Positions 6,505 to 46,938 of a stretch of 64,000 nt of DNA are shown piece after piece. Position 1 is the stretch's first letter. Every line of letters starts with the position of its first letter. The notes beneath the pieces are model-generated. The model was not told where the DNA came from, did not search any database, and saw only the letters and a program-made list of their open reading frames with translations. The stretch is taken from the NCBI RefSeq assembly GCF_003260995.1, contig NZ_CP030040.1, positions 3,512,889-3,576,888 of the forward strand, read 5' to 3'. The translations under genes were made by a program, and so were the position numbers. The DNA comes from Acetobacterium sp. KB-1. Lineage in GTDB: Bacteria > Bacillota > Clostridia > Eubacteriales > Eubacteriaceae.

Positions 6505-6559
6505 AAAGAAGTGATGGGTGAGATCACAATTTTTAAGACGTGTAACGGAGGTGGTTATT

Positions 6560-7573
6560 ATTTCAAAAGAAAGTGTGCTAATTGTCCTTTGGACTACCGG
6601 TCGCTGTAATCTGGCCTGCGAATACTGTTATGCCGGTTTAACCCATCTAAAAGCGGATATGGATTTTGAGACCGCGGCTCAGACGCTGGATCTGTTTTCC
6701 GATCATTATATGAAAATTCAGTTCGCCGGGGGAGAACCGCTGCTGAACTACCCTTTAATCTGTCAAGTGGTTTCTTATGTGAAGGAAAAAAATTACAATG
6801 CCAGCTTTCAGATGCAGACCAACGGCATCTGCATTACCCCGGAGATTGCCGTGGGCCTGAAAAAAATGAGGATTGCCTTAGGGGTCAGTCTTGATGGTCC
6901 CCCGGAGGTGAATGAGTTTACCCGGGGAAGGACAAGAGACGTGATTGCCGGGATTGGGTGTCTGGCTAATGAAGGAATCAAAATCAATCTCAACAGCGTG
7001 GTGACCAGTCACAGCATCACACAGCTTCCCAAGCTGGTCAGTTTCGCCTATTATTTGGGTAATGTAGGCGGGATTGGCCTTGATTTATTGCGGGATGCAG
7101 GGCGCGCCAGAGACCAGCGGGCGATCATCAAAAAAGCCACCCCAGAGCAAATCAAGACAGCGTTGACGAAAATGGTTGAGACTGCTGAGGAATTATATCG
7201 GCTGACTGGTAAAAAAATTGTGATCCGTGAGGTTCATGAAGCGAAGCAGCGGTTGAAAATGACCTCGTGCAACAAGGAATACTGTTATGCATCCTGCGGT
7301 AGATCCTATGTCGTGCTGCCTTGTGGCGATGTTTACCCTTGCGGATCACTAATTGAAAATCCGAAATATTTTATGGGGAATGTGGTAAAAGCGCGCCCCT
7401 TAAAAAACGTTGTCATTGTAAAGGCAGAATCGCAAGGCTGTAAAACATGTGACTATTATAGCATCTGTCCCGGGGGCTGTCCCTCGCGCCTGATCTTAAA
7501 TGATGAAAAAAAACAGGACACCTCGCTGGACTGCGTGTTAAAAAAGGCCGCCTTTGAGCTGGCCAGACAATAA
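6560..7573 (+). CDS. Radical SAM/SPASM-type protein next to the chelatase genes
   Basis: About 338 aa. The N-terminal radical SAM cluster motif is CNLACEYC (CX3CX2C), followed by QFAGGEPLLNYP, the SAM-binding GGE region. The C-terminus holds a Cys-rich SPASM/Twitch-like region (C..CYASC, LPCGDVYPCG, GCKTCDYYSICPGGCPSR) expected to bind one or two further [4Fe-4S] clusters. Relatives include the haem-pathway proteins NirJ/AhbC/AhbD and peptide-modifying SPASM enzymes. The start is odd: a perfect GGAGGTGG lies at 6547-6554, and the only in-frame codon at usual spacing is ATT (6557 or 6560). GTG codons exist at 6518, 6551 and 6575 but are badly placed. Adjacency to the chelatase suggests tetrapyrrole modification, which is inference. 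Confidence 0.8.
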   Translation: MSKESVLIVLWTTGRCNLACEYCYAGLTHLKADMDFETAAQTLDLFSDHYMKIQFAGGEPLLNYPLICQVVSYVKEKNYNASFQMQTNGICITPEIAVGLKKMRIALGVSLDGPPEVNEFTRGRTRDVIAGIGCLANEGIKINLNSVVTSHSITQLPKLVSFAYYLGNVGGIGLDLLRDAGRARDQRAIIKKATPEQIKTALTKMVETAEELYRLTGKKIVIREVHEAKQRLKMTSCNKEYCYASCGRSYVVLPCGDVYPCGSLIENPKYFMGNVVKARPLKNVVIVKAESQGCKTCDYYSICPGGCPSRLILNDEKKQDTSLDCVLKKAAFELARQ

Positions 7574-7660
7574 CAAGGCTTGGTGAAGTGGGAAACGATT
7601 AAGACGCAAGTTTAGCAATCATATCGCTGTTTGAAAGTAAGTCTACGGCAGGTCGTTTGC

Positions 7661-8122
7661 TTAATGATCAAAAGCGACATACGCCTGAATAACCGTCTTA
7701 AGTTCAGAGACCCCTTCGCCGGTCAATGCACTTACCGGGTGAATCTTATCAGGGTGGACTCCGGCATAAGTCAGGTAGCGTAGACTTCGCTTGAGGTTAC
7801 AGTGTTTATGATCAATTTTGGTAATAACCCCAATTACGGGGATGTTATAGGTACAGACAAAATTAGGTGGAACCGAGTTTTGGTGATCGGTGCTGGAATT
7901 AATTAGAATAATCAGCCCCGCATCACAGGTTACATTAATGGCCTGAGGACGAAAACAGGGTAATTCAACAAATTCGCCAGGGGTATCAATAAAATGATCA
8001 GAATAACTGACCTGCTGGGTTTTCCCATAGGTAATAAATTCATTGGTCAGCCGTAAAAATAGGGTGGTTTTACCGCTACCGATCCGTCCGATGAGGGCGA
8101 TGCGATTTTTATTATTGGCCAT
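7661..8122 (-). CDS. EutP/PduV-family small GTPase
   Basis: 153 aa. P-loop protein with G1 GRIGSGKT near the N-terminus, the family-typical DTPGEFVE (G3 region), G4 TKID and G5-like SALTGEG. The TQQVSYSDHFIDTPGE block is diagnostic of EutP/PduV, proteins encoded in ethanolamine and propanediol microcompartment operons but also found alone. ATG 8122 has GGAGGA 7 nt upstream; the frame extends further upstream but without a ribosome site. No eut or pdu enzymes are adjacent. It converges with the radical SAM gene and stands behind a small ORF and a terminator-like hairpin on the same strand. Function here is unknown. Confidence 0.8.
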   Translation of the reverse strand: MANNKNRIALIGRIGSGKTTLFLRLTNEFITYGKTQQVSYSDHFIDTPGEFVELPCFRPQAINVTCDAGLIILINSSTDHQNSVPPNFVCTYNIPVIGVITKIDHKHCNLKRSLRYLTYAGVHPDKIHPVSALTGEGVSELKTVIQAYVAFDH

Positions 8123-8153
8123 AAATAAATCCTCCAGTCTGCAAAAAACAAAA

Positions 8154-8175
8154 AAACCTTTTTTAAAAAAGGTTT
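8154..8175 (-). terminator. Perfect AT-rich inverted repeat between small ORF and eutP-like gene
   Basis: AAACCTTTTTT at 8154-8164 is directly followed by its reverse complement at 8165-8175, and on the minus strand a T-rich tract follows. It can act as an intrinsic terminator or attenuator reading towards the GTPase gene, whose start lies 32 nt further on. Confidence 0.5.
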
Positions 8176-8266
8176 GCAAATACGGAGTTGTTTCCGTGAC
8201 GCCTGCAGTTGATCGGTGGGGCGTCATTTCGTTTTATTCTCACATTTTGCAGCCTTCTTTGAAGCT

Positions 8267-8359
8267 TCAAACAGATCGTGTTTTGACAAAAATATCCTGA
8301 CTCAGAGGGACATCATACACACAGCCTTCTTGGTTAACCCAATGACTGAATGCGTCCAT
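8267..8359 (-). CDS. Possible 30-aa peptide, or frameshifted 44-aa ORF (8224-8359)
   Basis: An ATG at 8359 follows AAGGAGAAGAAT, a good Shine-Dalgarno, and a strong minus-strand promoter lies 80-100 nt upstream. The frame encodes MDAFSHWVNQEGCVYDVPLS plus ten residues, then TGA at 8269-8267. Near the end lies an A4 run; removing one A opens the frame to a stop at 8224 and gives a Lys-rich tail with one Cys (44 aa in total). This could be a genuine short peptide, a decayed gene, or a sequencing slip in the homopolymer. I do not recognise it. It is probably cotranscribed with the EutP-like GTPase unless the intervening hairpin stops transcription. Confidence 0.35.
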   Translation of the reverse strand: MDAFSHWVNQEGCVYDVPLSQDIFVKTRSV

Positions 8360-8435
8360 ATTCTTCTCCTTACAGTAGCAAAGAAACTGTCGCGGATTTT
8401 TACCGCGTTCCTTTTGTAAACACTTTTTCTAGTTT

Positions 8436-8464
8436 ATTATAGTCTAAAATCGGTCAATAATCAA
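8436..8464 (-). promoter_or_regulatory. Sigma-A-type promoter for small ORF/eutP-like unit
   Basis: On the minus strand TTGATT (8464-8459) and TATAAT (8441-8436) are separated by exactly 17 nt. It points to the small ORF at 8359 and the EutP-like gene. Confidence 0.6.
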
Positions 8465-8546
8465 GCACCTTGATCATTTTTAAAAGGACCAAGGATTAAT
8501 ACAAGTGAAGAAATTTGGCTGCTTGCGAAGAAAAAGGGTTGGTTAC

Positions 8547-8576
8547 TTGACATATGCCAATAACCTATTATATAAT
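8547..8576 (+). promoter_or_regulatory. Promoter of the molybdate-type ABC operon
   Basis: TTGACA at 8547-8552 and TATAAT at 8571-8576, spacer 18 nt. The -35 continues as TTGACATATGCC, the same ten to twelve bases seen at 20488 and partly at 17975 and 12946. The CATATG extension may be part of a shared operator. Confidence 0.7.
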
Positions 8577-8631
8577 TCAAAACATATCTAAACGTTACAA
8601 AACAATACTAAAGTAATGAAAAGGAGATGTG

Positions 8632-9426
8632 ATGAAGAGCGTTAAGAATTGGTTAGTGGTATTATTGGTAATGGGAATAATTATCAGCTTGGTATCAGGT
8701 TGTAGCAGTAAGGCTGACGGAGCGCAAGAGAAAGTTGCTGAAAGTCAAAGTCTCGCTGGTCAAATCTTGTTTGTGTACTGTGGGGCTGGCATGACCAAGC
8801 CTTTCGGGGAAATTGCCGATAAATTCAAAACAGAAACCGGTTGTGAAATGGAAGTTGTTTATGCCAATGCGGCCCAGCTTCAGAATCAGATTAAGACAAC
8901 TGGTGAAGGGGATTTGTTTATTGCCGGCTCCGCTGATGAATTGGCACCAGTTAAAGATTTTGTTACAAAAAGTAAAGAACTGGTCAAACACATCCCTGTA
9001 TTGGCTGTAAAAAGCGGAAACCCACTGGGAATTTCCGGCTTAAACGATCTAGCAAAAGAAGGGGTGGAAGTTGTGCTGGGTGATGGCGATGCCACGCCAA
9101 TTGGTAAGATTGCCAATAAAGCGTTAACAGATCTGGGGATTTTAAGCAATGTCAATGTCATTGCCCGGGCAGCCACAGCACCGGAAATATTTAATGCCCT
9201 GTCCGTTGATGAATGCGATGCGATTATTGTCTGGAAAGAAAATGTGACTGGTTCCGCCACCGAAATTGTCAAGACAACGGATCTGGATACCTATGTCAAA
9301 AAAGTTCCGGCGGCACAATTAAGCAGCAGTAAAAATACCGAAACACTGGATGCGTTTATGACATTCTTAGATTCGGATTCTGCAAAAGCGATATGGGAAA
9401 ACTATGGATACGAAGTAGTTAATTAA
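8632..9426 (+). CDS. ModA-like periplasmic/lipoprotein anion-binding component of ABC transporter
   Basis: 264 aa. Lipoprotein signal: a hydrophobic stretch ending in SLVSGC, so Cys near residue 23 would be lipidated. The mature part reads as a ModA/WtpA-type binding fold (LFVYCGAGMTKPFGEIADKF, GDLFIAGSADE, ATPIGKIANKAL, DAIIVWKEN), the class that binds molybdate or tungstate oxyanions. ATG 8632 is preferred over the overlapping GTG 8629 because GGAG at 8623-8626 is then 5 nt away. It is first in an operon with a permease, an ATPase, an HMA protein and ModD. Oxyanion specificity cannot be read from sequence; tungstate is plausible since acetogens use W or Mo formate dehydrogenases. Confidence 0.85.
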   Translation: MKSVKNWLVVLLVMGIIISLVSGCSSKADGAQEKVAESQSLAGQILFVYCGAGMTKPFGEIADKFKTETGCEMEVVYANAAQLQNQIKTTGEGDLFIAGSADELAPVKDFVTKSKELVKHIPVLAVKSGNPLGISGLNDLAKEGVEVVLGDGDATPIGKIANKALTDLGILSNVNVIARAATAPEIFNALSVDECDAIIVWKENVTGSATEIVKTTDLDTYVKKVPAAQLSSSKNTETLDAFMTFLDSDSAKAIWENYGYEVVN

Positions 9427-9434
9427 ACGATCTG

Positions 9435-10256
9435 ATGAGGGAACGATTTTCAGTATTTAGTTTATTTGAAATCATTACAATCGTCATTACGGTCATAGTT
9501 ATTAGCTTTACCTCAGTACTGATAGTGGCAATCGTCTTAAAAGGGTTACCCTATTTGGGTCAGGCATTTTATTCAGAAGAAGTGCAATTCGCTGTTAAAA
9601 TGAGCCTGTTCACCGCAAGTATATCCACAATCATTTGTATGGTGCTCGCCATTCCCACCGCATATGCATTAACACGGACTGCGTTTCCCTTTAAAAAACT
9701 GTGTCAGATGATGATTGAACTGCCATTATCGATGCCCTATCTGGTTTTGGGTCTTAGTTTATTAATTATTTTTTCGTCAGACTTTGGTAAGGCCCTTAAA
9801 GAGTTGGGATTTAAGGTTGTCTTTGATAAAAATGGTATCATTATTGCTCAAACCGTTGTCAATCTTCCCTATGTAGTCCGATTTATTCGGACCGCATTTG
9901 AGGAAGTTGATGAGCGACTGGAGTTTATTTCCGGCAGTCTGGGAGCGACGAAGTGGGAACGCTTCATAACCATTACCTTACCGCTATCCAAGAATGCCAT
10001 TATCACAACTATTATTTTAGCCTGGTCAAGGGGCCTCGGCGAATTTGGGGCGACGCTGATGTTAGTAGGAGCCACCCGGATGAAAACAGAAACCCTGACG
10101 ACATCCGTTTATTTAAATCTGGCAACCGGGGATACCGGTGCTTCCATGGCATCGGCAACAATTATTCTGATTATTTCGCTGATTTCTCTTTTTCTGACCA
10201 ACTGGATTGGCAGGAAAAATCCCCAGGAGAGCAGGATGAAGGACGTGAACCGATGA
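9435..10256 (+). CDS. modB: ModB-like ABC transporter permease
   Basis: 273 aa integral membrane protein with about six predicted hydrophobic segments. It carries the binding-protein-dependent permease EAA-type loop near residue 195 (GRGLGEFGATLMLVGATRM), which docks on the ATPase. The EFGAT sequence is typical of the ModB/WtpB/CysT group. The start lies 8 nt after the modA-like stop and has no clear Shine-Dalgarno, suggesting translational coupling. The stop overlaps the ATPase start (ATGA at 10253-10256). Confidence 0.88.
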   Translation: MRERFSVFSLFEIITIVITVIVISFTSVLIVAIVLKGLPYLGQAFYSEEVQFAVKMSLFTASISTIICMVLAIPTAYALTRTAFPFKKLCQMMIELPLSMPYLVLGLSLLIIFSSDFGKALKELGFKVVFDKNGIIIAQTVVNLPYVVRFIRTAFEEVDERLEFISGSLGATKWERFITITLPLSKNAIITTIILAWSRGLGEFGATLMLVGATRMKTETLTTSVYLNLATGDTGASMASATIILIISLISLFLTNWIGRKNPQESRMKDVNR

Positions 10257-11014
10257 TTAATACAATGGTTGAAATTAAAGACTACTCCATTAAATTAGGA
10301 ACCTTTCAATTGAATAATATCAATTTAAACATTCGTGAAAAAGAAATCTTTGCCGTGCTGGGCAGAACCGGATCAGGTAAAACTGTTCTGCTGGAGTCCG
10401 TGGCCGGTTTTTATCGGAAATTCTCTGGTGAAGTGTGCATTCAGGGAAAGCCGGTAGTCAAAATTCCTTTAGAGAGGCGGCAGATTGGTTTTGTTTATCA
10501 GGATTTCGGTCTGTTTCATCACATGTCTGTTTATGAGAATATTACTTATGGATTAAAAATTCAAAGAAAAGACAAGGCCTATAAAAAAGAAATGGCTGAT
10601 AAAATGGCTGAAATCTTGTCCATCGGCGATATCTTGAATCAGTATCCGGGAACCTTAAGTGGGGGTGAACGTCAAAGAACGGCCCTTGCCCGGGCACTGA
10701 TTCTTAATCCAAAATTGTTGTTGATGGATGAGCCCTTTTCATCCTTAGATCCGGCCACCAAAGAAATGATGTATCAGCAAATTAAAGAAATTCATAAACT
10801 ATTTGGCTGTACTATTTTATTTGTAACCCATGATTTTAATGAGGCGCAAGTAATGGCTGATCGGATTGGCATTATGGTTAAGGGTGAACTACGGGGGGTC
10901 CGTAAAAGTACGGACTTGTTTAAAAACTGTCAGGATCAGGAAGTTAACCAGTTTTTATTGGGACGATACGAGAAAGGAGGAGCCGTGCATGAAAGAGTTT
11001 GCTTTGCAGGTTGA
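10253..11014 (+). CDS. modC: ModC-like ABC transporter ATPase
   Basis: 253 aa. Walker A GRTGSGKT, Q-loop in VYQDFGLFHHM, signature LSGGERQR, Walker B LLLMDEPFSSLD, and the switch His in VTHDFNEA are all present. The protein ends soon after the ATPase core, so the C-terminal TOBE/Mop domain that binds molybdate in classical ModC is missing. Regulation by bound oxyanion would therefore have to come from elsewhere. The start at 10253 overlaps the permease stop by 4 nt. The open frame upstream of 10253 is only a shadow over modB. Confidence 0.9.
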   Translation: MINTMVEIKDYSIKLGTFQLNNINLNIREKEIFAVLGRTGSGKTVLLESVAGFYRKFSGEVCIQGKPVVKIPLERRQIGFVYQDFGLFHHMSVYENITYGLKIQRKDKAYKKEMADKMAEILSIGDILNQYPGTLSGGERQRTALARALILNPKLLLMDEPFSSLDPATKEMMYQQIKEIHKLFGCTILFVTHDFNEAQVMADRIGIMVKGELRGVRKSTDLFKNCQDQEVNQFLLGRYEKGGAVHERVCFAG

Positions 11015-32826: not shown

Positions 32827-33474
32827 ATGGAAAATACGTTACGGGATGAAACCGCAATTGAAGAAAAAAGAAAAGATAAAATACCCTACGAACACTACAA
32901 GGGCTTGTTAAAGGACCATAATCCCCAGATGATTGCGGCTAACAGTACCTGTCCTTATAATGAAAAAGATAATTTTTTCACAGTCACCCTGATGGGAACG
33001 CCATATAAGGTGACCTATCCTCAGGGTGATGTGACTGATCTGGACAGCCGGGATTTTGATAATTATAAACTCAAAACCATGATTTTACGGTATTTGATTA
33101 ATGCTAAAGGGGTTAAGGCCACCGGCGAAAACATCGCCTATCGGGATGTTTCCGGTGGGAATGTCTACTATCCCTGTTTTGAAGGGCGTTGTTTAAAACG
33201 TTTTGCCTTTACCTTTAATTACAATCTTGACGGTTTAAAAAAGGCCATGGCTGTTCTAAAAGCAGAGCCACAAAGTATTGGTGATCTTTCATGGCGTTTT
33301 GAAGTCATTAATAATATGTTTATGACTGCTATTCTCTGGATTGGGGATGATGAATTCCCACCGGAAGCGCAAATATTATTTGATGCTAATTTCCCCAGTG
33401 CCTTCAGTGCTGAGGATATGGCCGTAATGGGTGATATTTTTATTCCGGCATTAAAAGAACTCAGCAAAAAATAA
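32827..33474 (+). CDS. DUF3786 protein (acs cluster orf1)
   Basis: 215 aa, soluble. It carries the DUF3786 blocks ILRYLINAKG (residues ~91-100) and IGDLSWRFEV, and ends in WIGDDEFPPEAQILFDANFP, typical of the family. The same segments recur in the next gene, so the two are a tandem pair. In other acetogens this domain occurs in the same place between acsV and acsD. A role in corrinoid protein assembly or reactivation is a guess from position. AATAGGAG precedes ATG 32827; the stop overlaps the next start. Confidence 0.8.
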   Translation: MENTLRDETAIEEKRKDKIPYEHYKGLLKDHNPQMIAANSTCPYNEKDNFFTVTLMGTPYKVTYPQGDVTDLDSRDFDNYKLKTMILRYLINAKGVKATGENIAYRDVSGGNVYYPCFEGRCLKRFAFTFNYNLDGLKKAMAVLKAEPQSIGDLSWRFEVINNMFMTAILWIGDDEFPPEAQILFDANFPSAFSAEDMAVMGDIFIPALKELSKK

Positions 33475-34130
33475 TGAAACAATCAAAGATACTAAATATT
33501 GATCCCCATTTTTCGGAAAGTAGTTATATCATCAACCGGGATTTATTTAAAAATTTTGATCCTGTTGCGATGAGTCAAAAGTCTCTTTGTCCCTTCGATC
33601 CGAAAAATGGGCGGTTTGAAATAATGGTCCTGGGTGAATCCTATTTTGTACTTCATCCCAGCGGTCTGGTTTTGAATGCCCGAGAGGAAGAATTTGATAA
33701 TTACTCGGTCAAAATTTTTATTCTTCGCTACTTAATGAATGCCAACGGAAAAGAAGCAACCAACGAATGGATCAGCTTTAAAGAATTTCCGGATGGGCCC
33801 ATTTATTATTCGAATTTTCATAAACGCTGTATTCAAGTTTTTGCGCAAATTGGCAATGAGAGGCCGGAACAGCTTAAACACTATATGAGCCTGCAAAAAG
33901 CTAAGACCTATGGTAAGGGTGATCTTTCCTGGCAGTTTACGGTGACACCGGGGGTTGATCTCATCTGGATTTTATGGTTTGGCGATGATGAGTTTGAAGC
34001 AGAGGCTCAAATATTATTTGACAAAAAATTAACAGACGTCTTTAATATTAAGGATTTGGCAATTTTAGGCGATGTTTTGATGATTTCGCTGAAAACCTTT
34101 ACGCTCTCTTTAGACTCTAAAAAAAATTAG
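33474..34130 (+). CDS. DUF3786 protein (acs cluster orf2)
   Basis: 218 aa, paralogue of the preceding protein: FILRYLMNANGKEA, KGDLSWQFTVTPG and WFGDDEFEAEAQILFD align with its neighbour, and the N-termini differ. ATG 33474 shares one base with the upstream TAA (TAATG), implying coupled translation and probably equimolar products. There is no signal peptide or membrane segment. Function is unknown; a heterodimer with orf1 is plausible. It is followed by the acsD promoter. Confidence 0.8.
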   Translation: MKQSKILNIDPHFSESSYIINRDLFKNFDPVAMSQKSLCPFDPKNGRFEIMVLGESYFVLHPSGLVLNAREEEFDNYSVKIFILRYLMNANGKEATNEWISFKEFPDGPIYYSNFHKRCIQVFAQIGNERPEQLKHYMSLQKAKTYGKGDLSWQFTVTPGVDLIWILWFGDDEFEAEAQILFDKKLTDVFNIKDLAILGDVLMISLKTFTLSLDSKKN

Positions 34131-37747: not shown

Positions 37748-39646
37748 ATGAGCAATGAAATTTTAAACTACGATAAGGTCGCTGAAGCTTCCCTTGCGAA
37801 AGCTCAAAGAGATGGCGCAGAAACAATGTGGGATCGCCGTGCTGCACAAAAAACCCAATGTGGTTTTGGAGAAGCGGGGGTTTGTTGCCGAATTTGTGCA
37901 ATGGGTCCATGTCGTGTAAGTCCAGTTCCTGGAAAAGGCGCTGAAAGAGGTATTTGTGGAGCTAACGCTGACACAATTGTTGCAAGAAACTTTGCCAGAA
38001 TGGTTGCCGGCGGAACTTCTGCCCATTCAGATCATGCCCGTGATATCGTCCATGCGATGCATCATTCATCAGCGGAAGGCCCATTCAAAATCCGTGACGA
38101 AGCTAAATTAAGACGAATCGCAGCAGAATGGGAAATTGCTGATGCAGACACTAAAGAAACCTATGCCTTAGCACATGAATTATCAGCGATGGCTTTGGAA
38201 GAATTTGGTAAACCTTTTGGAACCCAACGTTTCTTAAAAAGAGCACCACAAGCTCGACAGGATGTCTGGGCACGCGAAGATATCGCACCACGCGCTATTG
38301 ATATGGAAGTAACCACTTTAATGCATTCTACTCATATGGGTTGTGCTGCTGATTATGAAAGTCTTTTCAGACGTGGTATGAGAACTGGTATGTCTGATGG
38401 ATGGGGCGGATCAATGATCGGTACTGAATTCTCTGATATTATGTACGGAACACCAACCGCGCGGGCATCTTCTTCAAACTTAGGTGTTATTGATGCCGAA
38501 ATGGTTAATATTCTGATCCATGGTCATGATCCTAACCTGGCTGAAATGGTTGTACTGGCAGCTCAAAACCCAGAAATGGTTGAACTGGCAAAAGCTAAGG
38601 GTGCTAAAGGCATTAATATTGTTGGGATGTGCTGTACAGGTAATGAAATGACCATGAGACATGGTATCAAAATTGCCGGTAACTTCTACCAACAAGAAAT
38701 GTGTATCATCACAGGTGCTATTGAAGCTGTTGTCGTTGATGTTCAATGTATCTTCCCGGCTCTGCCTGAACTGGCAAAAACATATCATACCCGATTTATC
38801 AGTACTTCTGAAAAGGCTAAAATCTCAGGAGATTTATTCTTGAAATTCTCTGAAGAAACTGGCTTGGACAATGCTAACGAAATCGTTAAATTAGCCGTTG
38901 AAAACTTCCCGAACCGTGATGCTGCTAAAGTAGAAATTCCAGACATAAAGCAAGATACCATGGTTGGTTACTCTGTTGAAGAAATTATTAACCATTTGGA
39001 TGCAGTTGTTAACTCACAATTAGAAGACAAACTGGGTACTGTTAAACCTTTAACTGATGTTATTTATGCCGGTGTTTTTCGTGGTGCTGCTGGTGTTGTT
39101 GGTTGTAACAATCCAAAACAACAGCATGACTATGCTCATATTACCGTAATGGAAGAACTAATTAAACGTGACGTAATCTGTGTTGTTACAGGTTGTGCTG
39201 CTCAAGCTGCTGCTAAAGCTGGTTTATTAACATTAGAAGCAAAAGAAAGATGTGGCCGTGGTCTTTTAGAAGTCTGTGAACGTGTAAACATTCCACCAGT
39301 GCTTCACTTGGGATCTTGTGTCGATATCAGTCGTATCCTGCACATTGTAAACTTATGTGCCGACGTTCGAGGGATTGACCCTGCTTTATTACCAGTTGTT
39401 GGTATCGCTCCAGAATGGATGTCAGAAAAAGCTGTTTCAATTGCAAACTACGTAGTAGGTTCTGGTATCAATACTTACCTTGGTGTTATTCCACAGGTAT
39501 TAGGTTCACCAAACTTCACAAAATTATTGACCGAAGATTGCCAGGAATTTATCGGAGCACATTTCGTATTTGAAAAAGATCCAATCGTTATGGTTGACAA
39601 AATCATGGAAGACATGGAAGCGAAACGAACTGCTTTAGGTATCTAA
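37748..39646 (+). CDS. acsA: Ni-Fe-S carbon monoxide dehydrogenase catalytic subunit
   Basis: 632 aa. Cys38 and Cys46 fit the bridging D-cluster, and Cys47, Cys50, Cys55 and Cys70 the B-cluster (CCRICAMGPCR...GICGAN). C-cluster ligand regions include MHSTHMGCAADYE, NIVGMCCTGNEM, GVVGCNNPKQQHDYAH, TGCAAQAAAKAG and LHLGSCVDISR. It reduces CO2 to CO and, in complex with AcsB, passes CO through an internal tunnel to the A-cluster. Length is standard for bacterial CooS/AcsA. AGAGAGGTAG precedes ATG 37748. cooC2 follows after 25 nt. Confidence 0.97.
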   Translation: MSNEILNYDKVAEASLAKAQRDGAETMWDRRAAQKTQCGFGEAGVCCRICAMGPCRVSPVPGKGAERGICGANADTIVARNFARMVAGGTSAHSDHARDIVHAMHHSSAEGPFKIRDEAKLRRIAAEWEIADADTKETYALAHELSAMALEEFGKPFGTQRFLKRAPQARQDVWAREDIAPRAIDMEVTTLMHSTHMGCAADYESLFRRGMRTGMSDGWGGSMIGTEFSDIMYGTPTARASSSNLGVIDAEMVNILIHGHDPNLAEMVVLAAQNPEMVELAKAKGAKGINIVGMCCTGNEMTMRHGIKIAGNFYQQEMCIITGAIEAVVVDVQCIFPALPELAKTYHTRFISTSEKAKISGDLFLKFSEETGLDNANEIVKLAVENFPNRDAAKVEIPDIKQDTMVGYSVEEIINHLDAVVNSQLEDKLGTVKPLTDVIYAGVFRGAAGVVGCNNPKQQHDYAHITVMEELIKRDVICVVTGCAAQAAAKAGLLTLEAKERCGRGLLEVCERVNIPPVLHLGSCVDISRILHIVNLCADVRGIDPALLPVVGIAPEWMSEKAVSIANYVVGSGINTYLGVIPQVLGSPNFTKLLTEDCQEFIGAHFVFEKDPIVMVDKIMEDMEAKRTALGI

Positions 39647-39671
39647 TTAATAAAGATAGACAGGTGAAAAA

Positions 39672-40457
39672 ATGAAAATAGCATTAACAGGAAAAGGCGG
39701 AGTTGGGAAAACAACCATCTCAGCAAGTTTGAGCCGATATTTTGCCGATGAAGGATATAATGTATTAACAGTTGATGCTGATCCCGATGCCAATCTTGGC
39801 CTTGCCTTGGGCATGAGTGAAGAAATGATTGCAGAAATAGTTCCCATATCAGAAATGAAAGATTTAGTGGAAGAACGAACAGCTGCCGATACCGGTTCTT
39901 TTGGATCAATGTTTAGAATGAATCCAGAAGTTGCTGACATTCCTGAACGTTATGCCAAAGAGTTTAATGGCGTCAAGCTGTTAACCATGGGTACCGTCGA
40001 CACCGGAGGATCTGGCTGTGTATGCCCGGAGCATGTCTTATTAAAAATGCTCATGAGCCATCTGGTCTTATACCAAAAAGATGTCGTGATCATGGATATG
40101 GAAGCAGGTATTGAGCATTTGGGTCGGGGAACAGCTGGAGCAGTCGATGCGTTTATCGTCGTCGTTGAGCCGGGAGTCCGTAGCATTCAGACATTTCATA
40201 AGGTTAAATCCATGGCAATGGATATCGGTGTAAAGCAGGTTTATGTTATTGGAAATAAAATCCGCAATGACGGAGATATCGCCTTTATAAAAGAAAAAGT
40301 TGGAGATGAAAACATCATTGGTTTTTTAAACTACCGGGATGCCATATCAGAATCTGACCGTAACAATCAATCCCCTTACGATGATCCTGCCATGAAAGAA
40401 GATATTGCCGTTTTAGGTAAAAGCATTCTGGCGATTGTCGATGAAAAAAAGAAATAA
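39672..40457 (+). CDS. cooC2: CooC/AcsF-type nickel-insertion ATPase (copy 2)
   Basis: 261 aa. GKGGVGKTT Walker A, DADPDANLGLALG, the Ni-binding CxC in GSGCVCPEHVLL, and MDMEAGIEHLGRGT. It is more similar in sequence to classical CooC/AcsF than cooC1 is. Location between acsA and acsB1 suggests it matures the CODH/ACS complex itself. AGACAGGTG precedes ATG 39672. Confidence 0.93.
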   Translation: MKIALTGKGGVGKTTISASLSRYFADEGYNVLTVDADPDANLGLALGMSEEMIAEIVPISEMKDLVEERTAADTGSFGSMFRMNPEVADIPERYAKEFNGVKLLTMGTVDTGGSGCVCPEHVLLKMLMSHLVLYQKDVVIMDMEAGIEHLGRGTAGAVDAFIVVVEPGVRSIQTFHKVKSMAMDIGVKQVYVIGNKIRNDGDIAFIKEKVGDENIIGFLNYRDAISESDRNNQSPYDDPAMKEDIAVLGKSILAIVDEKKK

Positions 40458-40522
40458 CAAATTTTTAAAAGTGAACAAAAATCTAATGTTAATTGAACTA
40501 ACCTAAGGAGGAAAAAGTCCAT

Positions 40523-42697
40523 ATGAATATGAATCTTTTTGATATAATTTACGACGGCCAAGCTCAGTACCTGAAACGTGCTGAAGAAATGGTAGCCAAA
40601 GTCGTTGCTGAAAAGGGAAAAGAAACACCAGTTAAATTCCCAGGTACTGCTTATGCCTTGCCTTGTATCTATGCCATCACCGGCAAAAAAATCACCAATG
40701 TAGGTGAATTAGAAGATGCGTTGGCACTGGCTAAAGAAAAAATTCACCGCACCAATTACCTGCAAGACGCACTAGATGCTGGTACAGCTGCGGCAATGTG
40801 TGCAGAAATTATCGAAGCAGTTAAATATGTTTACGAAGAACTTCCATACGAAGGTCGTCACGTTGAAGATTTAAATACTACTGATGTTCGTTACTTAGGA
40901 CATATCACCGATGCTGAAGTACGTAACTTCGGTGTGCCATTGGTAACAGATGACATTCCTGGTGTTGCTGTTATTATCGGTGAAGCTAAAGATGCTGAAA
41001 CACTTGCGGCAATCGTAAAAGACTACCAGGGCAAAGGTTTATTAACCTTCATGGTTGGTAAAGTTATTGATCAGGCGATTGAACAAAAAATCAAAATGGG
41101 TATTGATCTTCGCGTTATTCCTTTGGGATACGAAATTGAGTCCGTTATCCACGTTATATCCGTTGCGATTCGTGCCAGCTTAATCTTTGGTGCAACACCT
41201 CCAGGCGACTTCCTGGCGCATCGAACTTATACAAAAAATCGTGTTAAAGCATTTGTTAATGTATTTGGACCATGGGATAATAAAATTATCGCTGCCGGTG
41301 CTGCTGCTATCGAACTTGGCTTCCCAGCAGTAACAGAAACATTCATCAATGAAGTACCAACCTTATTATTACACCAACCAGATAACAGCAAAGTTGTTGC
41401 CACTTCTTTAGAAGCCCGTAACATTAAAATCAAAGTTACCGAAATCGACTGTCCAGTTGCTGTTTCTTCAGCATTTGAAGGTGAACGTGTTCGTAAAGAT
41501 ACTATGTTTGCTGAATTCGGCGGAAACAAAACGGAATGTTGGGAACTGGTTACAACCGGCGAATTAGCTGAAATGGAAGATCACAAAATCACGATTGTTG
41601 GACCAGATATTGATGACGCGATGTTTGCAGGCAAAGACGTTGTTCGTTTGCCAATGGGCGTTGTTGTTAAAGTAGCTGGAAAACAAATGCAAAAAGACTT
41701 TGAAACCGTTCTTGAAAGACGTATCCATTACTTCACAAACTATATTGAAGGGGCAATGCATGTTGGACAAAGAAATATTGCCTGGATCCGTTTAACAAAA
41801 GAAGCGTTTGAAAAAGGCTTCCGCTTAAAACATATCGGTGAAGTTTTATACGCAAAAATGCGTTCTGACTTTGATAAAGTTGTTGATAAATGTGAAGTAA
41901 CTATTTACACCAACGCTGAAGATGTCAAACGTCTTGGCGAAGAAATGGTAAAACCAATTTACTCTGAACGTGATGAACGAATGGGCGCACTGACTGATGA
42001 AAGTGTCGATGAATTCTATACCTGTTTATTATGTCAATCCTTTGCTCCAAGCCACGTTTGTATCGTAACACCAGAACGTTTAGGTCTTTGTGGTGCCGTT
42101 TCCTGGTTGGATGCCAAAGCAACAAAAGAATTGGATCCGATGGGACCAAACCAACCAATCGTTAAAGGAGAGGCCATTGACGAACGTCTTGGTATCTGGG
42201 AATCTTGTAACGAAGTAGTCGCACGAGATTCGCAGGGTGCGGTTGAACAGGTTACACTTTATTCAATCCTTGAAGATCCAATGACTTCCTGTGGTTGCTT
42301 CGAATGTATCTGTGGTATCATGCCTGAAGCGAATGGTGTTGTTATTGTAAACCGTGAATTCGGCGATACTTCACCCGTTGGAATGACCTTCGGTGAGTTG
42401 GCTTCGATGACTGGTGGTGGGGTTCAAACGCCAGGCTTCATGGGTCATGGTCGATTCTTAATCGGTTCTAAAAAATTCATGTCAGCTGAAGGTGGTTTAC
42501 CACGTATCGTTTGGATGCCTAAAGAATTAAAAGACGATGTAGCTGAACGTTTAAACAAGGCTGTATTTGAAATGACCGGTATTGAAAACTTTGCAGACAT
42601 GGTTTGTGATGAAACAATTGCCAGTGATTCTGAAGCAGTATTAGAATTCTTAGAATCAAAAGGACATCCAGCCTTGGCGATGGATCCAATTATGTAA
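40523..42697 (+). CDS. acsB1: Acetyl-CoA synthase, CODH/ACS alpha subunit (copy 1)
   Basis: 724 aa. The A-cluster ligands are intact: Cys501, Cys504, Cys513 and Cys523 for the [4Fe-4S] cubane and proximal Ni, and Cys590-Gly-Cys592 for the distal Ni. The offset from the well-known Moorella numbering is a constant five. The N-terminal domain that docks on CODH and holds the CO tunnel is present. The enzyme joins CO, the CFeSP methyl group and CoA to acetyl-CoA. AAGGAGGAAAAAG sets ATG 40523. Codon use is very biased towards GGT/CGT/GAA-type codons, as in acsA. A terminator follows, and a second acsB lies 1 kb downstream. Confidence 0.97.
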   Translation: MNMNLFDIIYDGQAQYLKRAEEMVAKVVAEKGKETPVKFPGTAYALPCIYAITGKKITNVGELEDALALAKEKIHRTNYLQDALDAGTAAAMCAEIIEAVKYVYEELPYEGRHVEDLNTTDVRYLGHITDAEVRNFGVPLVTDDIPGVAVIIGEAKDAETLAAIVKDYQGKGLLTFMVGKVIDQAIEQKIKMGIDLRVIPLGYEIESVIHVISVAIRASLIFGATPPGDFLAHRTYTKNRVKAFVNVFGPWDNKIIAAGAAAIELGFPAVTETFINEVPTLLLHQPDNSKVVATSLEARNIKIKVTEIDCPVAVSSAFEGERVRKDTMFAEFGGNKTECWELVTTGELAEMEDHKITIVGPDIDDAMFAGKDVVRLPMGVVVKVAGKQMQKDFETVLERRIHYFTNYIEGAMHVGQRNIAWIRLTKEAFEKGFRLKHIGEVLYAKMRSDFDKVVDKCEVTIYTNAEDVKRLGEEMVKPIYSERDERMGALTDESVDEFYTCLLCQSFAPSHVCIVTPERLGLCGAVSWLDAKATKELDPMGPNQPIVKGEAIDERLGIWESCNEVVARDSQGAVEQVTLYSILEDPMTSCGCFECICGIMPEANGVVIVNREFGDTSPVGMTFGELASMTGGGVQTPGFMGHGRFLIGSKKFMSAEGGLPRIVWMPKELKDDVAERLNKAVFEMTGIENFADMVCDETIASDSEAVLEFLESKGHPALAMDPIM

Positions 42698-42735
42698 TTA
42701 AATTTGACTTAAGTCGAATTTTGTAACATGCCTGA

Positions 42736-42768
42736 AGGCAGAGCACAGATGTGTTCTGCCTTTTTTTT
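42736..42768 (+). terminator. Terminator after acsB1
   Basis: AGGCAGAGCA pairs with TGTTCTGCCT (with a G-T pair) and is followed by eight T residues. It separates the canonical acs cluster from the His-rich/acsB2 extension. Confidence 0.85.
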
Positions 42769-42878: not shown

Positions 42879-43508
42879 ATGTGTAATAATAAAGAACTGC
42901 ATCGTCATGGTGAACACCATGACCACGAAGAAGGTCATCCTCATAGCGGAACGACCAGTCATGATCATCAACATGCTCATCCCCATGCTGGTGATGAGGA
43001 GCATGAACATATCCACGAACATGATCATGAACACGCCCATACTCACAGTCATCCTCATAGTGATGACCATGATCATGGCAGTGAACATGTGCATACGACA
43101 GAACATGAGCATGAACATACCCATAAACACGCCCATCCCCATCCTCATCAGCATGACCATGCCCATCCCCATGAAACACAGGAGCATGCCCATGGTCATG
43201 AACATCCCCATGGACACGAACATCCCCATCCTCACGTGCATGGTGATGGACATTGTGGAAATCATGCCAAAAATGGCGCCGGTTGCTGCCAAGGTGGTGA
43301 TGTTGAAAACAAAGACGTCGAGATATTAGGCTTATTGCTGGATCATTGGGTTACCCATAATCAGGATCACGCGATGGAGTATAATACCTGGGTTGAAAAA
43401 ATGAACCGACTCGGTAAAAACGATGTCGCTGAATCCCTTATCGAAGCAATTGCATTGATGAGCGAAGCAGATAAACATCTCGTAGAAGCAAAAAAAGAAT
43501 TAAACTAA
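42879..43508 (+). CDS. Very His-rich CooJ-like putative nickel-storage protein with HWxxHxxDH tail domain
   Basis: 209 aa. Residues ~8-130 are mostly HxH repeats with Asp, Glu and Pro and about fifty His in all. They are followed by CGNH, then GAGCC, then a helical tail of ~65 residues. Such tracts bind many Ni/Zn ions, as in CooJ of Rhodospirillum. The tail carries LLLDHWVTHNQDHAMEYNTW and matches the whole 72-aa protein at 46561-46779. AGGAGGAAAAAAAT precedes ATG 42879. It sits between the two acsB genes, so supplying nickel for the A- and C-clusters is the best guess. Antisense Met-rich frames over this gene are artefacts of the CAT/CAC codons. Confidence 0.8.
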   Translation: MCNNKELHRHGEHHDHEEGHPHSGTTSHDHQHAHPHAGDEEHEHIHEHDHEHAHTHSHPHSDDHDHGSEHVHTTEHEHEHTHKHAHPHPHQHDHAHPHETQEHAHGHEHPHGHEHPHPHVHGDGHCGNHAKNGAGCCQGGDVENKDVEILGLLLDHWVTHNQDHAMEYNTWVEKMNRLGKNDVAESLIEAIALMSEADKHLVEAKKELN

Positions 43509-43683
43509 TCATTACTGTTTGCGTTTCTAGTGCGATCATCGTCTTGAGACGCAAATTTTGCAACTAATCGTATAAAGCAGAAAAACAATTGATGGGCGGT
43601 TGCTTTATTTTAGTCGCCCGTGAAAGTGTTAACCAATGCCTGAAGGTATTGAATTTCTTTAGAAAAGGAAGTGTGTAGTTGTT

Positions 43684-45819
43684 ATGAGTTTGACAGATTT
43701 GATTTACGCTGGTTCTAATGCGGTGGCAGGTTTAACAGAAGGTGCAGTAGATGATGCCATCAAAAAATATGGTGAGAGCCACGCGGTAGGATATCCCGAT
43801 ACAGCCTATTTTTTACCGATTATTTATGCCGCAACAGGGGTTAAGATAAAGACATTGGGTGATTTACCGGCAGCAGTTGGGATTCTTAAGAGTTTGATCA
43901 CCAATAAAGAAGATTTGGGCGAAGCGTTAAACGCCGGACTGGCGACAGCGGTTGGGGCTGAAATTATTGAGGCGATTCGATATCTTGATGGTGATCCATA
44001 CGCCAACGATTCGGGCATTGGTTTTGTGGCGGATCCCATTATTCGTTCGTTGGGCGTGCCCCTGGTAACCGGCGATATTCCCGGGATTGCCGTTCTTTTA
44101 GGGGAATCCTCAGACCCTGCTGAATTAGCAGCGATTGTAAAAGATTATCAGGAAAAAGGTTTACTGACCTTTATGGTTGGTAATATCATCGAGCAGGCGC
44201 TGGAAGCCGGAGTTAAGATGGGGCTGGATTATCGTGTCATTCCTTTGGGCCATGAAGTGACCTCTGTCATTCATGTTGTCTCGGTGGCAATTCGGGCGGC
44301 GCTTATTTTTGGTGGCATCGAGCCTGGTAAACTGGCTGAATTTTTAACCTACACCAAAGAACGGGTGCCGGCCTTTGTCAATACCTTTGGCGAATTAAAT
44401 GAAGTTGTAGTTTCGGTGGGAGCGGGAGCGATTGCCCTGGGTTTCCCGGTGATTGCCGACGTCCCTGTGCCGGAAGTACCGGGTGCATTAATGACCCAGG
44501 CAGACCATGCTAAAACAGTTGAGTTTTCTTTAGAAGCTCGTGATATTAAGATCAAGGTTACAAAAATTGATGTTCCCGTTTCGGTTGCCTCGGCGTTTGA
44601 AGGTGAGCGTGTCCGTAAGGATACCATGTTTGCTGAATTTGGCGGCAACAAAACGAAATGCTGGGAATTGGTAAGAGAAGCGGAATTAAGTGAAATAGAA
44701 GATCATAAAATTACAGTAATTGGTCCAGAAATTGACGATGCCCAATTTGCAGGTGCTGATGTCGTGCGGTTACCCTTAGGTATTCTGGTTGAAGTTGCCG
44801 GTAAAGGTATGCAAAAGGATTTTGAATCGGTATTAGAACGACGGATTCATTACTTTACCAACTACATCGATGGCGCCATGCATGTCGGACAACGTAACAT
44901 TGCCTGGATTCGTTTAACAAAAGAAGCTTATGAAAAAGGATTCCGCTTAAAACACATCGGTGAAGTATTGTATGCAAAAATGCGGGCAGACTTCGATAAC
45001 GTTGTCGATAAATGTCAGGTAACGCTTTATACGACTCAGGAAGATGTGGCCCGACTTGAAGAAGAAGTGGTCAAACCAATTTATAGCCAACGGGACGATC
45101 GTTTAAACGCCTTAACCGATGAAAGCGTTGATACCTTCTATACCTGTACCCTCTGTCAGTCGTTTGCACCGAGCCATGTTTGTGTGGTAACGCCAGAACG
45201 ATTAGGCTTATGCGGTGCTGTTTCGTGGTTGGATAGTAAAGCGACCAAGGAATTGGATCCGGCCGGACCATCCCAACCGATTGAAAAAGGTGTTGCTGTG
45301 GATGAAAAAATTGGTATCTGGGAGTCTGTTAATAAAACCGTTGCGGCAGCATCGCAGGGGGCCGTTGAGCGGGTAACCTTATACTCAATCCTGGAAGATC
45401 CAATGACTTCTTGCGGTTGTTTTGAATGTATCTGTGGGATCATGCCGGAAGCCAATGGTGTTGTTATTGTTAACCGTGAGTTTGGCGAAATCTCACCGGT
45501 GGGGATGACCTTTGGGGAATTGGCGTCGATGACTGGTGGCGGCGTTCAAACACCCGGATTTATGGGACATGGCCGACATTTTATCGGGTCCAAGAAATTT
45601 ATGTCGGCTGAAGGCGGACTAACGCGAATTGTCTGGATGCCAAAAGAATTAAAAGATGATGTCGCAGAACGTCTAAATAAGGCCGTACTTGAATTAACAG
45701 GGATAGAAAATTTCGTTGACATGGTTTGCGATGAAACCATTGCGACCGACTCCGAAGCGGTATTGGAGTTCCTGGAATCAAAGGGACACCCGGCTCTGAC
45801 CATGGACCCCATTATGTAA
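43684..45819 (+). CDS. acsB2: Acetyl-CoA synthase (copy 2)
   Basis: 711 aa paralogue of acsB1. All A-cluster ligands are kept: Cys488, Cys491, Cys500, Cys510 and Cys577-Gly-Cys579. The C-terminal two thirds are nearly identical to copy 1. The first ~110 residues diverge and are shorter (the ELPYEGRHVEDLNTTDVRY stretch of copy 1 is replaced), in the domain that contacts CODH and lines the CO tunnel. Codon use is milder than in copy 1, suggesting lower expression. GGAAGTG precedes ATG 43684. No second acsA accompanies it; the neighbours are nickel-type accessory genes. It could be an active alternative ACS used without CODH, for example with external CO or pyruvate-derived carbon. Confidence 0.95.
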   Translation: MSLTDLIYAGSNAVAGLTEGAVDDAIKKYGESHAVGYPDTAYFLPIIYAATGVKIKTLGDLPAAVGILKSLITNKEDLGEALNAGLATAVGAEIIEAIRYLDGDPYANDSGIGFVADPIIRSLGVPLVTGDIPGIAVLLGESSDPAELAAIVKDYQEKGLLTFMVGNIIEQALEAGVKMGLDYRVIPLGHEVTSVIHVVSVAIRAALIFGGIEPGKLAEFLTYTKERVPAFVNTFGELNEVVVSVGAGAIALGFPVIADVPVPEVPGALMTQADHAKTVEFSLEARDIKIKVTKIDVPVSVASAFEGERVRKDTMFAEFGGNKTKCWELVREAELSEIEDHKITVIGPEIDDAQFAGADVVRLPLGILVEVAGKGMQKDFESVLERRIHYFTNYIDGAMHVGQRNIAWIRLTKEAYEKGFRLKHIGEVLYAKMRADFDNVVDKCQVTLYTTQEDVARLEEEVVKPIYSQRDDRLNALTDESVDTFYTCTLCQSFAPSHVCVVTPERLGLCGAVSWLDSKATKELDPAGPSQPIEKGVAVDEKIGIWESVNKTVAAASQGAVERVTLYSILEDPMTSCGCFECICGIMPEANGVVIVNREFGEISPVGMTFGELASMTGGGVQTPGFMGHGRHFIGSKKFMSAEGGLTRIVWMPKELKDDVAERLNKAVLELTGIENFVDMVCDETIATDSEAVLEFLESKGHPALTMDPIM

Positions 45820-45865
45820 CAAATGGTTGTAATTAAGACTAAACGGTTATAATGAATGACAGTCA

Positions 45866-45888
45866 CCCCTTAAGCTTGTGTTAAGGGG
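45866..45888 (+). other. Hairpin between acsB2 and cooT
   Basis: CCCCTTAA (45866-45873) pairs with TTAAGGGG (45881-45888), extended by flanking CAG/CTG. No T run follows, so it is more likely an mRNA-stability element than a terminator. Confidence 0.45.
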
Positions 45889-45936
45889 TAGGCTGTGTTA
45901 AAATAGCCTAAATTAAAAAGAAAGGAGACCAAGAAC

Positions 45937-46134
45937 ATGTGTGAATCTTCAGCTTATATGATTACTCCTGAAGGAGAAACAAAGATAATGGACTATGTTG
46001 TTGATATCGTTCCAAACGACGATGGCAGTTTAACGCTGTCTGACTTATTGGGTGGTACAAAAATTGTTCAAGGCAAACTCAAAGAAGTAAAACTTCTAAA
46101 CCACAAAATTATTATTGAAGGAATAGCGGTTTAG
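45937..46134 (+). CDS. cooT: CooT-family small nickel-binding protein
   Basis: 65 aa. It begins MCESSAYM, with the Cys2 that binds Ni(II) in CooT homodimers, followed by a small beta-barrel-like sequence (TPEGETKIMDYVVDIVPNDD, then KLKEVKLLNHKIIIEGIAV). Length and pattern fit CooT. AAAGGAGACCAAGAAC gives ATG 45937. The next gene starts 3 nt after the stop. With the His-rich protein and CooC it completes a CooC/CooJ/CooT-like trio for nickel delivery to CODH/ACS. Confidence 0.8.
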   Translation: MCESSAYMITPEGETKIMDYVVDIVPNDDGSLTLSDLLGGTKIVQGKLKEVKLLNHKIIIEGIAV

Positions 46135-46137
46135 CCA

Positions 46138-46560
46138 ATGAACATTGTTGTGCTAGATGGTATGGGAGGAGGCATTGGATCTCGAATTGTCGGTATTTTA
46201 AAAGATGAAATACCGCCGTATATTGAAATATATGGATTGGGAACCAATGCACTGGCCACAGCGGCCATGTTAAAAAAAGGCGCTAATAAAGGTGCAACCG
46301 GAGAAAATGCCATTGCGGTCACGGTAAAAAAAGCGGATTTTATAATTGGCTCAATTGCGATGACCATTCCAAACTCGATGATGGGAGAAGTCACGCCACG
46401 AATGGTTGAAGCGATTGGAAACAGCGATGGATTAAAAATCTATATTCCGATTCTGCCGGAAAATCACCATATTGTTTCACTGGAAGAAAAACCACTCTTG
46501 CTCCAGATTCGAGAAGCCGTTTCGTTGATAAAAAAAGAACTTAATTTAGGAGAAGTGTAG
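46138..46560 (+). CDS. DUF3842-family protein
   Basis: 140 aa. MNIVVLDGMGGGIGSRIVG is a Rossmann-like Gly-rich start, and GTNALATAAMLKKGANKGATGENAI and GEVTPRMVEAIGNS are typical of DUF3842. Function is unknown. The gene is tightly packed between cooT (3 nt) and the 72-aa HWxxH gene (0 nt), so all three are translated from one message. It has a nucleotide-binding look but no complete P-loop. A role in nickel or CODH/ACS maturation is inferred only from place. Confidence 0.75.
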   Translation: MNIVVLDGMGGGIGSRIVGILKDEIPPYIEIYGLGTNALATAAMLKKGANKGATGENAIAVTVKKADFIIGSIAMTIPNSMMGEVTPRMVEAIGNSDGLKIYIPILPENHHIVSLEEKPLLLQIREAVSLIKKELNLGEV

Positions 46561-46779
46561 ATGGATGCTAAATTAAAGATGGATAAGGAAGCGGATATTT
46601 TCAAGGTGTTGCTGGCCCATTGGATTAATCACACCGGTGATCATATTGATGGCTATCGGGAGTGGGCTGAGAAATTACAGGGTACATCAAAAGACGCGGT
46701 GTCCCGGGAAATATTTCTGGCAATTGACAAGATGCGTGAAGCACAAAAGAAAATTATGGAAGCCAAAATGCGTTTCTAA
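46561..46779 (+). CDS. 72-aa HWxxHxxDH helical protein, paralogue of the His-rich protein's tail
   Basis: 72 aa. LLAHWINHTGDHIDGYREW aligns with LLDHWVTHNQDHAMEYNTW in the His-rich protein at 42879-43508, and the rest (W..K, then an amphipathic helix with AIDKMREAQKKIMEAK) aligns with its last 35 residues. The invariant HW-x2-H-x2-DH pattern looks like a metal site on a helical bundle. The start ATG lies immediately after the DUF3842 stop, behind AGGAGAAGTGTAG. No name is known to me. It probably pairs with, or substitutes for, the tail domain in metal transfer. Confidence 0.7.
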   Translation: MDAKLKMDKEADIFKVLLAHWINHTGDHIDGYREWAEKLQGTSKDAVSREIFLAIDKMREAQKKIMEAKMRF

Positions 46780-46899
46780 AGACACGATAATAGCTTAAAA
46801 TTAATGACAACCCATGCTTGAAAGCAGGACTTTTTGTTCTGTTTTTTTTCGTATTAGTAAAGTGATGCGACAGCTGTAAGGAATCGTAGTCAAAAGTGG

Positions 46900-46938
46900 A
46901 GCCCCGGGAAAATGATACGTTTTCTCGGGGCTTTTTTT
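46900..46938 (+). terminator. Strong terminator closing the acs/nickel region
   Basis: AGCCCCGGGAAAA (46900-46912) pairs with TTTTCTCGGGGCT (46920-46932), followed by a T run. Confidence 0.9.

Follow-up and report, generated by a model that had tools for sequence, protein, structure and literature searches.

In the 64,000-nucleotide stretch of the Acetobacterium sp. KB-1 genome analysed here (NZ_CP030040.1, positions 3,512,889 to 3,576,888 of the forward strand; hereafter the window), a His-rich protein of 209 aa and a stand-alone protein of 72 aa, encoded near the acetyl-CoA synthase (ACS) gene acsB2, share a domain that is probably not undescribed but the nickel domain of CooJ, here duplicated, rearranged and unannotated. 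We give a probability of about 0.75 to the reading that both proteins carry this CooJ-type nickel domain and, together with CooT, keep carbon monoxide dehydrogenase (CODH) and/or ACS loaded with nickel under scarcity. Their likely role is the holding and delivery of nickel for CODH/ACS; we infer the binding of metal, its identity as nickel, the dimerisation of the domain and the transfer to the C- or A-cluster.

A sequence-only reading of this DNA had proposed that the last ~65 residues of the His-rich protein are homologous to the 72-aa protein, and both alignment and genome search bore this out. The two sequences aligned over 62 residues with a score of 127, whereas shuffled sequences gave a mean of 25.5 (standard deviation 4.9, maximum 52) and none of 5000 scored as high; moreover, the 72-aa protein as query in the genome search recovered the tail with an E of 3.7e-10 and an identity of 38%. 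Conservation was counted over 88 distinct domain strings from the fetched loci, four of which lack the first part (hence n = 84 for residues in that part). The three motif His were conserved in 81/84, 83/84 and 84/84 strings, the first Trp in 79/84 and the second Trp in 83/88, and H[WFL]-x2-H-x3-H was present in 80 of the 88, both window proteins included. These counts upheld a conserved, metal-type site where HW-x2-H-x2-DH had been read, but not the Asp ahead of the last His, which is variable, so that the motif is better written H-W-x2-H-x3-H. Searches of the domain against Pfam and NCBIfam gave no credible model. Single members did match scattered models (best E = 0.0007), but no family came up for more than three of the 19, and these matches were discounted as chance, as was a match of PF08992 to the 72-aa protein, under the cut-off at E = 0.22.

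Profiles of the domain were widened stepwise (A1, 19 rows; A2, 22 rows; A3, 37 rows), and all three were tried against the PDB. CooJ (6HK5) ranked 14 with A1 (E = 1.6), 2 with A2 (E = 0.021) and 1 with A3 (E = 0.016); a designed repeat protein (8e55) stood above CooJ with A2 and was rejected, as its match was partial, lacked the motif and fell below CooJ with A3. The A3 match to 6HK5 is colinear, with profile positions 5–63 on chain residues 8–64 and HFLDHVEGH aligned with HW-x2-H-x3-H, the three His in register. Furthermore, hhalign of A3 with the CooJ stretch gave a probability of 78% and a pairwise E of 1.8e-5, compared with 0.1% and 0.49 for the reversed stretch. CooJ scored 17.3 bits against 10.1 for the best shuffle, and none of 20,000 shuffles (19,386 reported) reached its score. 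The identity of the domain to CooJ is 15–19%. Alfano and colleagues reportedly defined the CooJ motif in 2019 as H(W/F)-x2-H-x3-H.

The AlphaFold2 monomer model of the 72-aa protein (mean predicted local distance difference test score, pLDDT, 96.4) contains two helices, at residues 3–39 and 45–71. In a Foldseek search of 350,542 chains, the top three matches to this model were chains E, A and B of 6hk5 (target template-modelling score 0.87–0.88; root-mean-square deviation, rmsd, 1.5–1.7), and VIA placed the model on CooJ with a Z of 9.3 and an rmsd of 1.2 Å over 64 of 64 residues. The domain had been called undescribed, and CooJ had been named beside it without being connected to it; the profile match and the predicted fold supply that connection, to the nickel-binding helical domain of CooJ. 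Motif, register and fold jointly make common descent with CooJ likely, and none of them would be enough alone.

Judged by the features that define CooJ, the window proteins have the motif, the two-helix fold, sequence homology over the folded domain and the gene neighbourhood (cooC/cooT/CODH). They lack a C-terminal His-rich tail, as the tract of the 209-aa protein is N-terminal and the 72-aa protein is tract-less, and are therefore called CooJ-type variants here and not filed as CooJ. The CooT protein scored over the cut-off of PF10133 and has Cys2, and the DUF3842 protein scored over that of PF12953. Among 100 distinct domain proteins, 29 had an N-terminal tract, 12 a C-terminal tract and 58 none, and one was a long fusion with an N-terminal tract (N-terminal calls required at least six His and C-terminal calls at least four, with start codons assigned mechanically). 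The 209-aa protein of the window has 54 His, 49 of them within residues 1–127. Read from its start at 42879, it also has Cys as residue 2, as in CooT; Cys2 was found in 8 of the 20 distinct domain proteins with at least 20 His, and in His-rich domain proteins it is a possible extra nickel ligand.

The distribution of the domain was assessed in two draws of genomes and among relatives. A profile search for co-occurrence with acsB or cooS had been put forward as half of a test able to refute the sequence-only reading; the domain proved to be enriched in CODH/ACS genomes and, in Bacillota, also lies beside the genes, so this half came out in favour. Of 299 Bacillota genomes searched with profile A1, 17 had a domain match and 92 had ACS. 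ACS was present in 14 of the 17 domain genomes against 78 of the 282 others (Fisher p = 9e-6, an overstatement because the genomes are related), and CODH over the cut-off in 14/17 against 110/282. The 14 ACS-bearing domain genomes span seven families. Three matches (G091, G170 and G206) covered profile positions 25–68 only, without the motif; they were retained among the 17 but are not regarded as clear members. Relatives from outside the genus were searched for the domain with the single 72-aa protein; among them, CODH over the cut-off was present in 10 of 11 domain genomes and in 11 of 31 without a match, and the eleventh domain genome (G023) has CODH in fragments.

In the second phylum (Desulfobacterota or Myxococcota; 297 genomes), the domain was found in 111 genomes, and a protein so far seldom met thereby becomes a common family. 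CODH matches with E values of 1e-140 or lower were present in 87 of these 111 against 93 of the 186 others (this threshold yields 180 genomes and the tool cut-off 178). Of the 24 domain genomes without CODH, 18 had a strong CdhC/ACS match (E < 1e-40), compared with 5 of 40 controls, the controls being the first by number of the 93 genomes having neither domain nor CODH. CODH and/or ACS was thereby found in 105/111 domain genomes, or in 102/108 when three weak domain matches are left aside (G453, G607 and G629; E = 4e-5 to 1e-3, G629 with internal stops), all three of which have CODH. A plasmid search with CooJ found none, and one with the tail found a single Acetoanaerobium record, in which cooT and DUF3842 stand beside the domain and ACS is near.

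At the domain loci of the 14 ACS-bearing Bacillota genomes, cooT lay within two genes in all 14, and DUF3842 was present at 11. In nine of them acsB is on the same contig, no more than 10 kb away, and three of the other five stand beside CbiMNQO-type genes.

Several observations weigh against the nickel-loading role and against the CooJ match on which it draws. The sequence match to CooJ is borderline (E = 0.016), and its signal comes mostly from the motif, since CooJ with the three His replaced scored 2.9 bits where the unchanged sequence scored 17.3. The Foldseek E values of the CooJ chains (0.56–0.84) are not significant, and the fold is of a common type; an unrelated chain, 7zcg, even reached a VIA Z of 9.5, above the 9.3 of CooJ, and was rejected because, although tied in Z, it superimposes at an rmsd of 3.4. 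In the Bacillota draw, 78 of the 92 ACS genomes had no domain match, so the domain is not needed for ACS. In the second phylum, 6 of the 111 domain genomes lacked both CODH and a strong match to ACS, and among 40 loci read there (29 best-scoring and 11 chosen, of 111 genomes) eight adjoin cooT and five adjoin Cbi-type transporter genes. One of the cooT-adjacent loci, L140, is also near CODH/ACS genes; other loci have neighbours without an evident nickel role, such as tyrosyl-tRNA synthetase. Partners may have been missed because 23 bacterial-type reference proteins were used and some contigs are short; as counted, the scarcity of known partners speaks against a role tied to one operon. In one relative (G019), the 72-aa paralogue has Tyr in place of the first motif His. 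Finally, according to passages of a study in Clostridium autoethanogenum, deletion of the gene of a His-rich protein (hp) or of cooT (nbp) left gas growth in minimal medium unchanged; the same passages place the defects of both deletions in rich medium and report no effect of extra nickel on the nbp deletion (PMC10230548). If hp belongs to the CooJ-type family, the module would be a help and not a need when nickel is ample.

The domain loci also bear on an explanation that we hold to be quite plausible, somewhat short of even odds, and that overlaps with the nickel-loading role, so that the two are not exclusive: general trafficking of nickel (or nickel and cobalt) from importers to any enzyme, with CODH/ACS as the commonest customer but not the sole one. 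Domain genes adjoin CbiMNQO-type transporter genes (L065, L066, L068, L111 and L113–L116) or SBP_bac_5 ABC transporters (L023, L027 and L036), they often stand solo in the second phylum, and in three genomes that lack ACS the gene right behind hypE encodes a weak, tract-bearing relative (L075–L077). The genome-level tie to CODH/ACS, which holds for 14 of 14 motif-bearing Bacillota matches and for 105 of 111 second-phylum genomes, argues for the narrower role.

Some of these loci have features of their own. At L036 (~4589–10836, minus strand), a second short copy, DUF3842 and CooT stand together beside the SBP_bac_5 ABC transporter in a run that is a possible nickel uptake operon; the genome (G008) also has the pathway copy of the domain. 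The small proteins of L075, L076 and L077 have a C-terminal His tract and match the second half of the domain only. The proteins of L114–L116 are 193 aa long and combine the domain with an unnamed C-terminal part beside CbiMNQO-type genes, and at L145 (5462–6259, minus strand) the domain is in one frame with a TrmO_N domain. DUF3786, which is also present in the window, occurs within the domain–CooT–DUF3842 run of L071 and L072.

The arrangement of the two copies was compared across the family. In 22 genomes with both copies on one contig, 13 had 3.0–3.5 kb between them, an interval that is acsB2 in the loci read, and nine had 0.7–0.83 kb. The shorter interval leaves no room for acsB2, so the unit is not built around this gene, and the sequence-only description of a module around acsB2 was too narrow: acsB2 lies inside the module in some relatives and not in others. 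In a tree of 97 domains (unrooted, with few columns, a rough bootstrap and the window's own His-rich row unlabelled), the short copies formed one clade (21 rows, 100/97), separate from the His-rich copies and on a long stem branch (0.97). A single clade of short copies fits one duplication inside the family.

It is tentative, and to our minds doubtful, that acetogens have split CooJ function between a tract-bearing holder and a 72-aa transfer subunit that are paired and serve the A-cluster and the C-cluster. G019 has one open frame of 973 aa (L024 6697–9618, minus strand) that joins a His tract, the CooJ-type domain and ACS; if the split model were true, the ACS chain would here carry its own nickel donor. 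Ahead of ACS, a ribosome site (aaggagg) and an ATG are still present, and one genome of that genus was covered, so the frame may yield two proteins. With a profile that finds the domain, a two-component model of delivery can be put directly to the test. The 72-aa paralogue may instead have ceased to be a metal carrier and may pair with the His-rich protein as its partner or regulator, as the long stem branch of the short clade and the Tyr of G019 would allow; we consider this unlikely, as G019 has the only short copy without the motif among the distinct strings.

It is improbable that the metal is cobalt and not nickel, with the pathway's corrinoid protein as its destination. Genes that we take to encode corrinoid proteins are also in the window, and CbiMNQO-type transporters, which keep company with the domain, can move cobalt as well as nickel, but the match to CooJ, whose PDB title names a high-affinity nickel-binding site, and the company of CooT both point to nickel. 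Least probable is a separate, undescribed receptor or transfer domain unrelated to CooJ, as first proposed, because the lack of a credible family model, the low identity and a signal mostly from the motif are set against a profile match that is colinear and keeps the motif in register, a score that no shuffle reached and a Foldseek list headed by three CooJ chains.

With the CooJ-type nickel domain as the preferred reading, a mechanism may be proposed. CooJ is a dimer that binds Ni(II) at its interface. The domain would be a two-helix hairpin with H-W-x2-H-x3-H on the first helix. In the 209-aa protein, the N-terminal His tract would buffer many nickel ions and pass them to this ordered site, from which the three His, in a dimer, would hand nickel on; the 72-aa paralogue would be the ordered site alone, a bare hand-over unit. 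CODH/ACS would receive the nickel, and CooT and the 209-aa and 72-aa proteins would keep CODH and/or ACS loaded when it is scarce.

DUF3842, a putative assembly partner in the sequence-only reading, has 29 invariant residues in 22 rows, none of them His or Cys. Searches with its model returned Rossmann-type folds of a general kind (VIA, Z as high as 9.7; Foldseek, lowest E = 6e-4 with an rmsd of 8.4), and neither VIA nor Foldseek indicated a function. The Rossmann-type model and the lack of invariant His or Cys favour a nucleotide-binding helper over a metal carrier, and our guess from the model is that DUF3842 may be such a helper. A literature search for DUF3842 found no paper.

Features of the CooJ-type locus, in window coordinates
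Feature	Position	Strand	Remarks
acsA, cooC and acsB1, upstream of the His-rich gene	37748..42697	+	acsB1 by PF19436; acsA and cooC presumably, from homology
Terminator-like hairpin between acsB1 and the His-rich gene	42734..42763	+	pattern match only
His-rich CooJ-type protein, 209 aa	42879..43508	+	N-terminal His tract, Cys-bearing linker, C-terminal CooJ-type domain (aa 145–209)
Stretch from the first to the last His ahead of the domain (tract and linker)	42900..43265	+	
HWVTHNQDH, H-W-x2-H-x3-H motif of the 209-aa tail domain	43344..43370	+	
acsB2 (acetyl-CoA synthase)	43684..45819	+	PF19436, NF040764; 71% identity to acsB1 (507/711)
CooT, 65 aa	45937..46134	+	Cys2, N-terminus MCESS; PF10133, 76.3 bits (curated cut-off 27)
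DUF3842 protein, 140 aa	46138..46560	+	PF12953, 165.4 bits (curated cut-off 28.5); Rossmann-like model without invariant His/Cys
Stand-alone CooJ-type domain, 72 aa	46561..46779	+	follows the stop codon of DUF3842 without a gap
HWINHTGDH motif of the 72-aa protein	46618..46644	+	
Terminator-like hairpin downstream of the 72-aa gene	46898..46934	+	pattern match only; another at 46820–46846

The open reading frames proposed between 42879 and 46779 for the His-rich gene, acsB2, CooT, DUF3842 and the 72-aa gene were all recovered at those positions. CooT and DUF3842 are 3 bases apart and DUF3842 and the 72-aa gene 0, an end-to-end packing. The scan found seven terminator-like patterns, compared with 4.5 in shuffles. 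Elsewhere in the window, a tandem pair of DUF3786 proteins (32827–34130) precedes the presumed corrinoid protein genes. The same genome also has a third full-length match to the ACS C-terminal part (C1:1160683–1161417, minus strand) and a partial ACS-like match (C1:3119997–3120395, plus strand).

Published work on CooJ and CooT was considered as far as the searched text of each source extends. Passages of PMC6006190 describe Rhodospirillum rubrum with cooJ or cooT inactivated as growing on CO only with added nickel, and give one Ni per CooT dimer, with Cys2 involved, and four Ni per CooJ monomer. Passages of a 2026 survey list 68 potential CooJ proteins and place them in clade E, alongside CODHs that are linked to one-carbon genes (PMC13056359), and text of another study describes CooJ from cable bacteria and from Desulfobulbales (PMC11247825). 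As these surveys place CooJ in one-carbon operons and in Desulfobulbales, part of the domain family may already be published, and some of the domain proteins found here may be among those potential CooJ proteins. The searched text of both surveys names neither Acetobacterium nor DUF3842 (PMC13056359, PMC11247825), and a literature search for CooJ with Acetobacterium found one paper, in whose searched passages the gene is not assigned.

A similar known system is the C. autoethanogenum pair of hp (LABRINI_07945) and nbp/CooT (LABRINI_07950); according to passages of PMC10230548, the Wood-Ljungdahl cluster there likewise ends with a His-rich protein and an adjoining CooT, and its authors state there that homologues of hp/nbp accompany the Wood-Ljungdahl genes in Acetobacterium woodii. 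Those passages label hp a hypothetical protein and draw no link to CooJ (PMC10230548). The present result suggests what an acetogen gene of this type, deleted earlier without explanation, may be. With CooJ of R. rubrum (6HK5), the window proteins share the two-helix hairpin with H-[WF]-x2-H-x3-H in register, a His-rich tract (in the 209-aa protein) and the company of cooT and CODH genes. They differ in the position of the tract, which is C-terminal in R. rubrum, according to passages of PMC6006190, and N-terminal to the domain here, and in having a second, tract-less copy together with ACS and DUF3842 as company. What is new here is the tract ahead of the domain, the tract-less paralogue, the partnership of cooT with DUF3842 and the sharing of one open frame with ACS.

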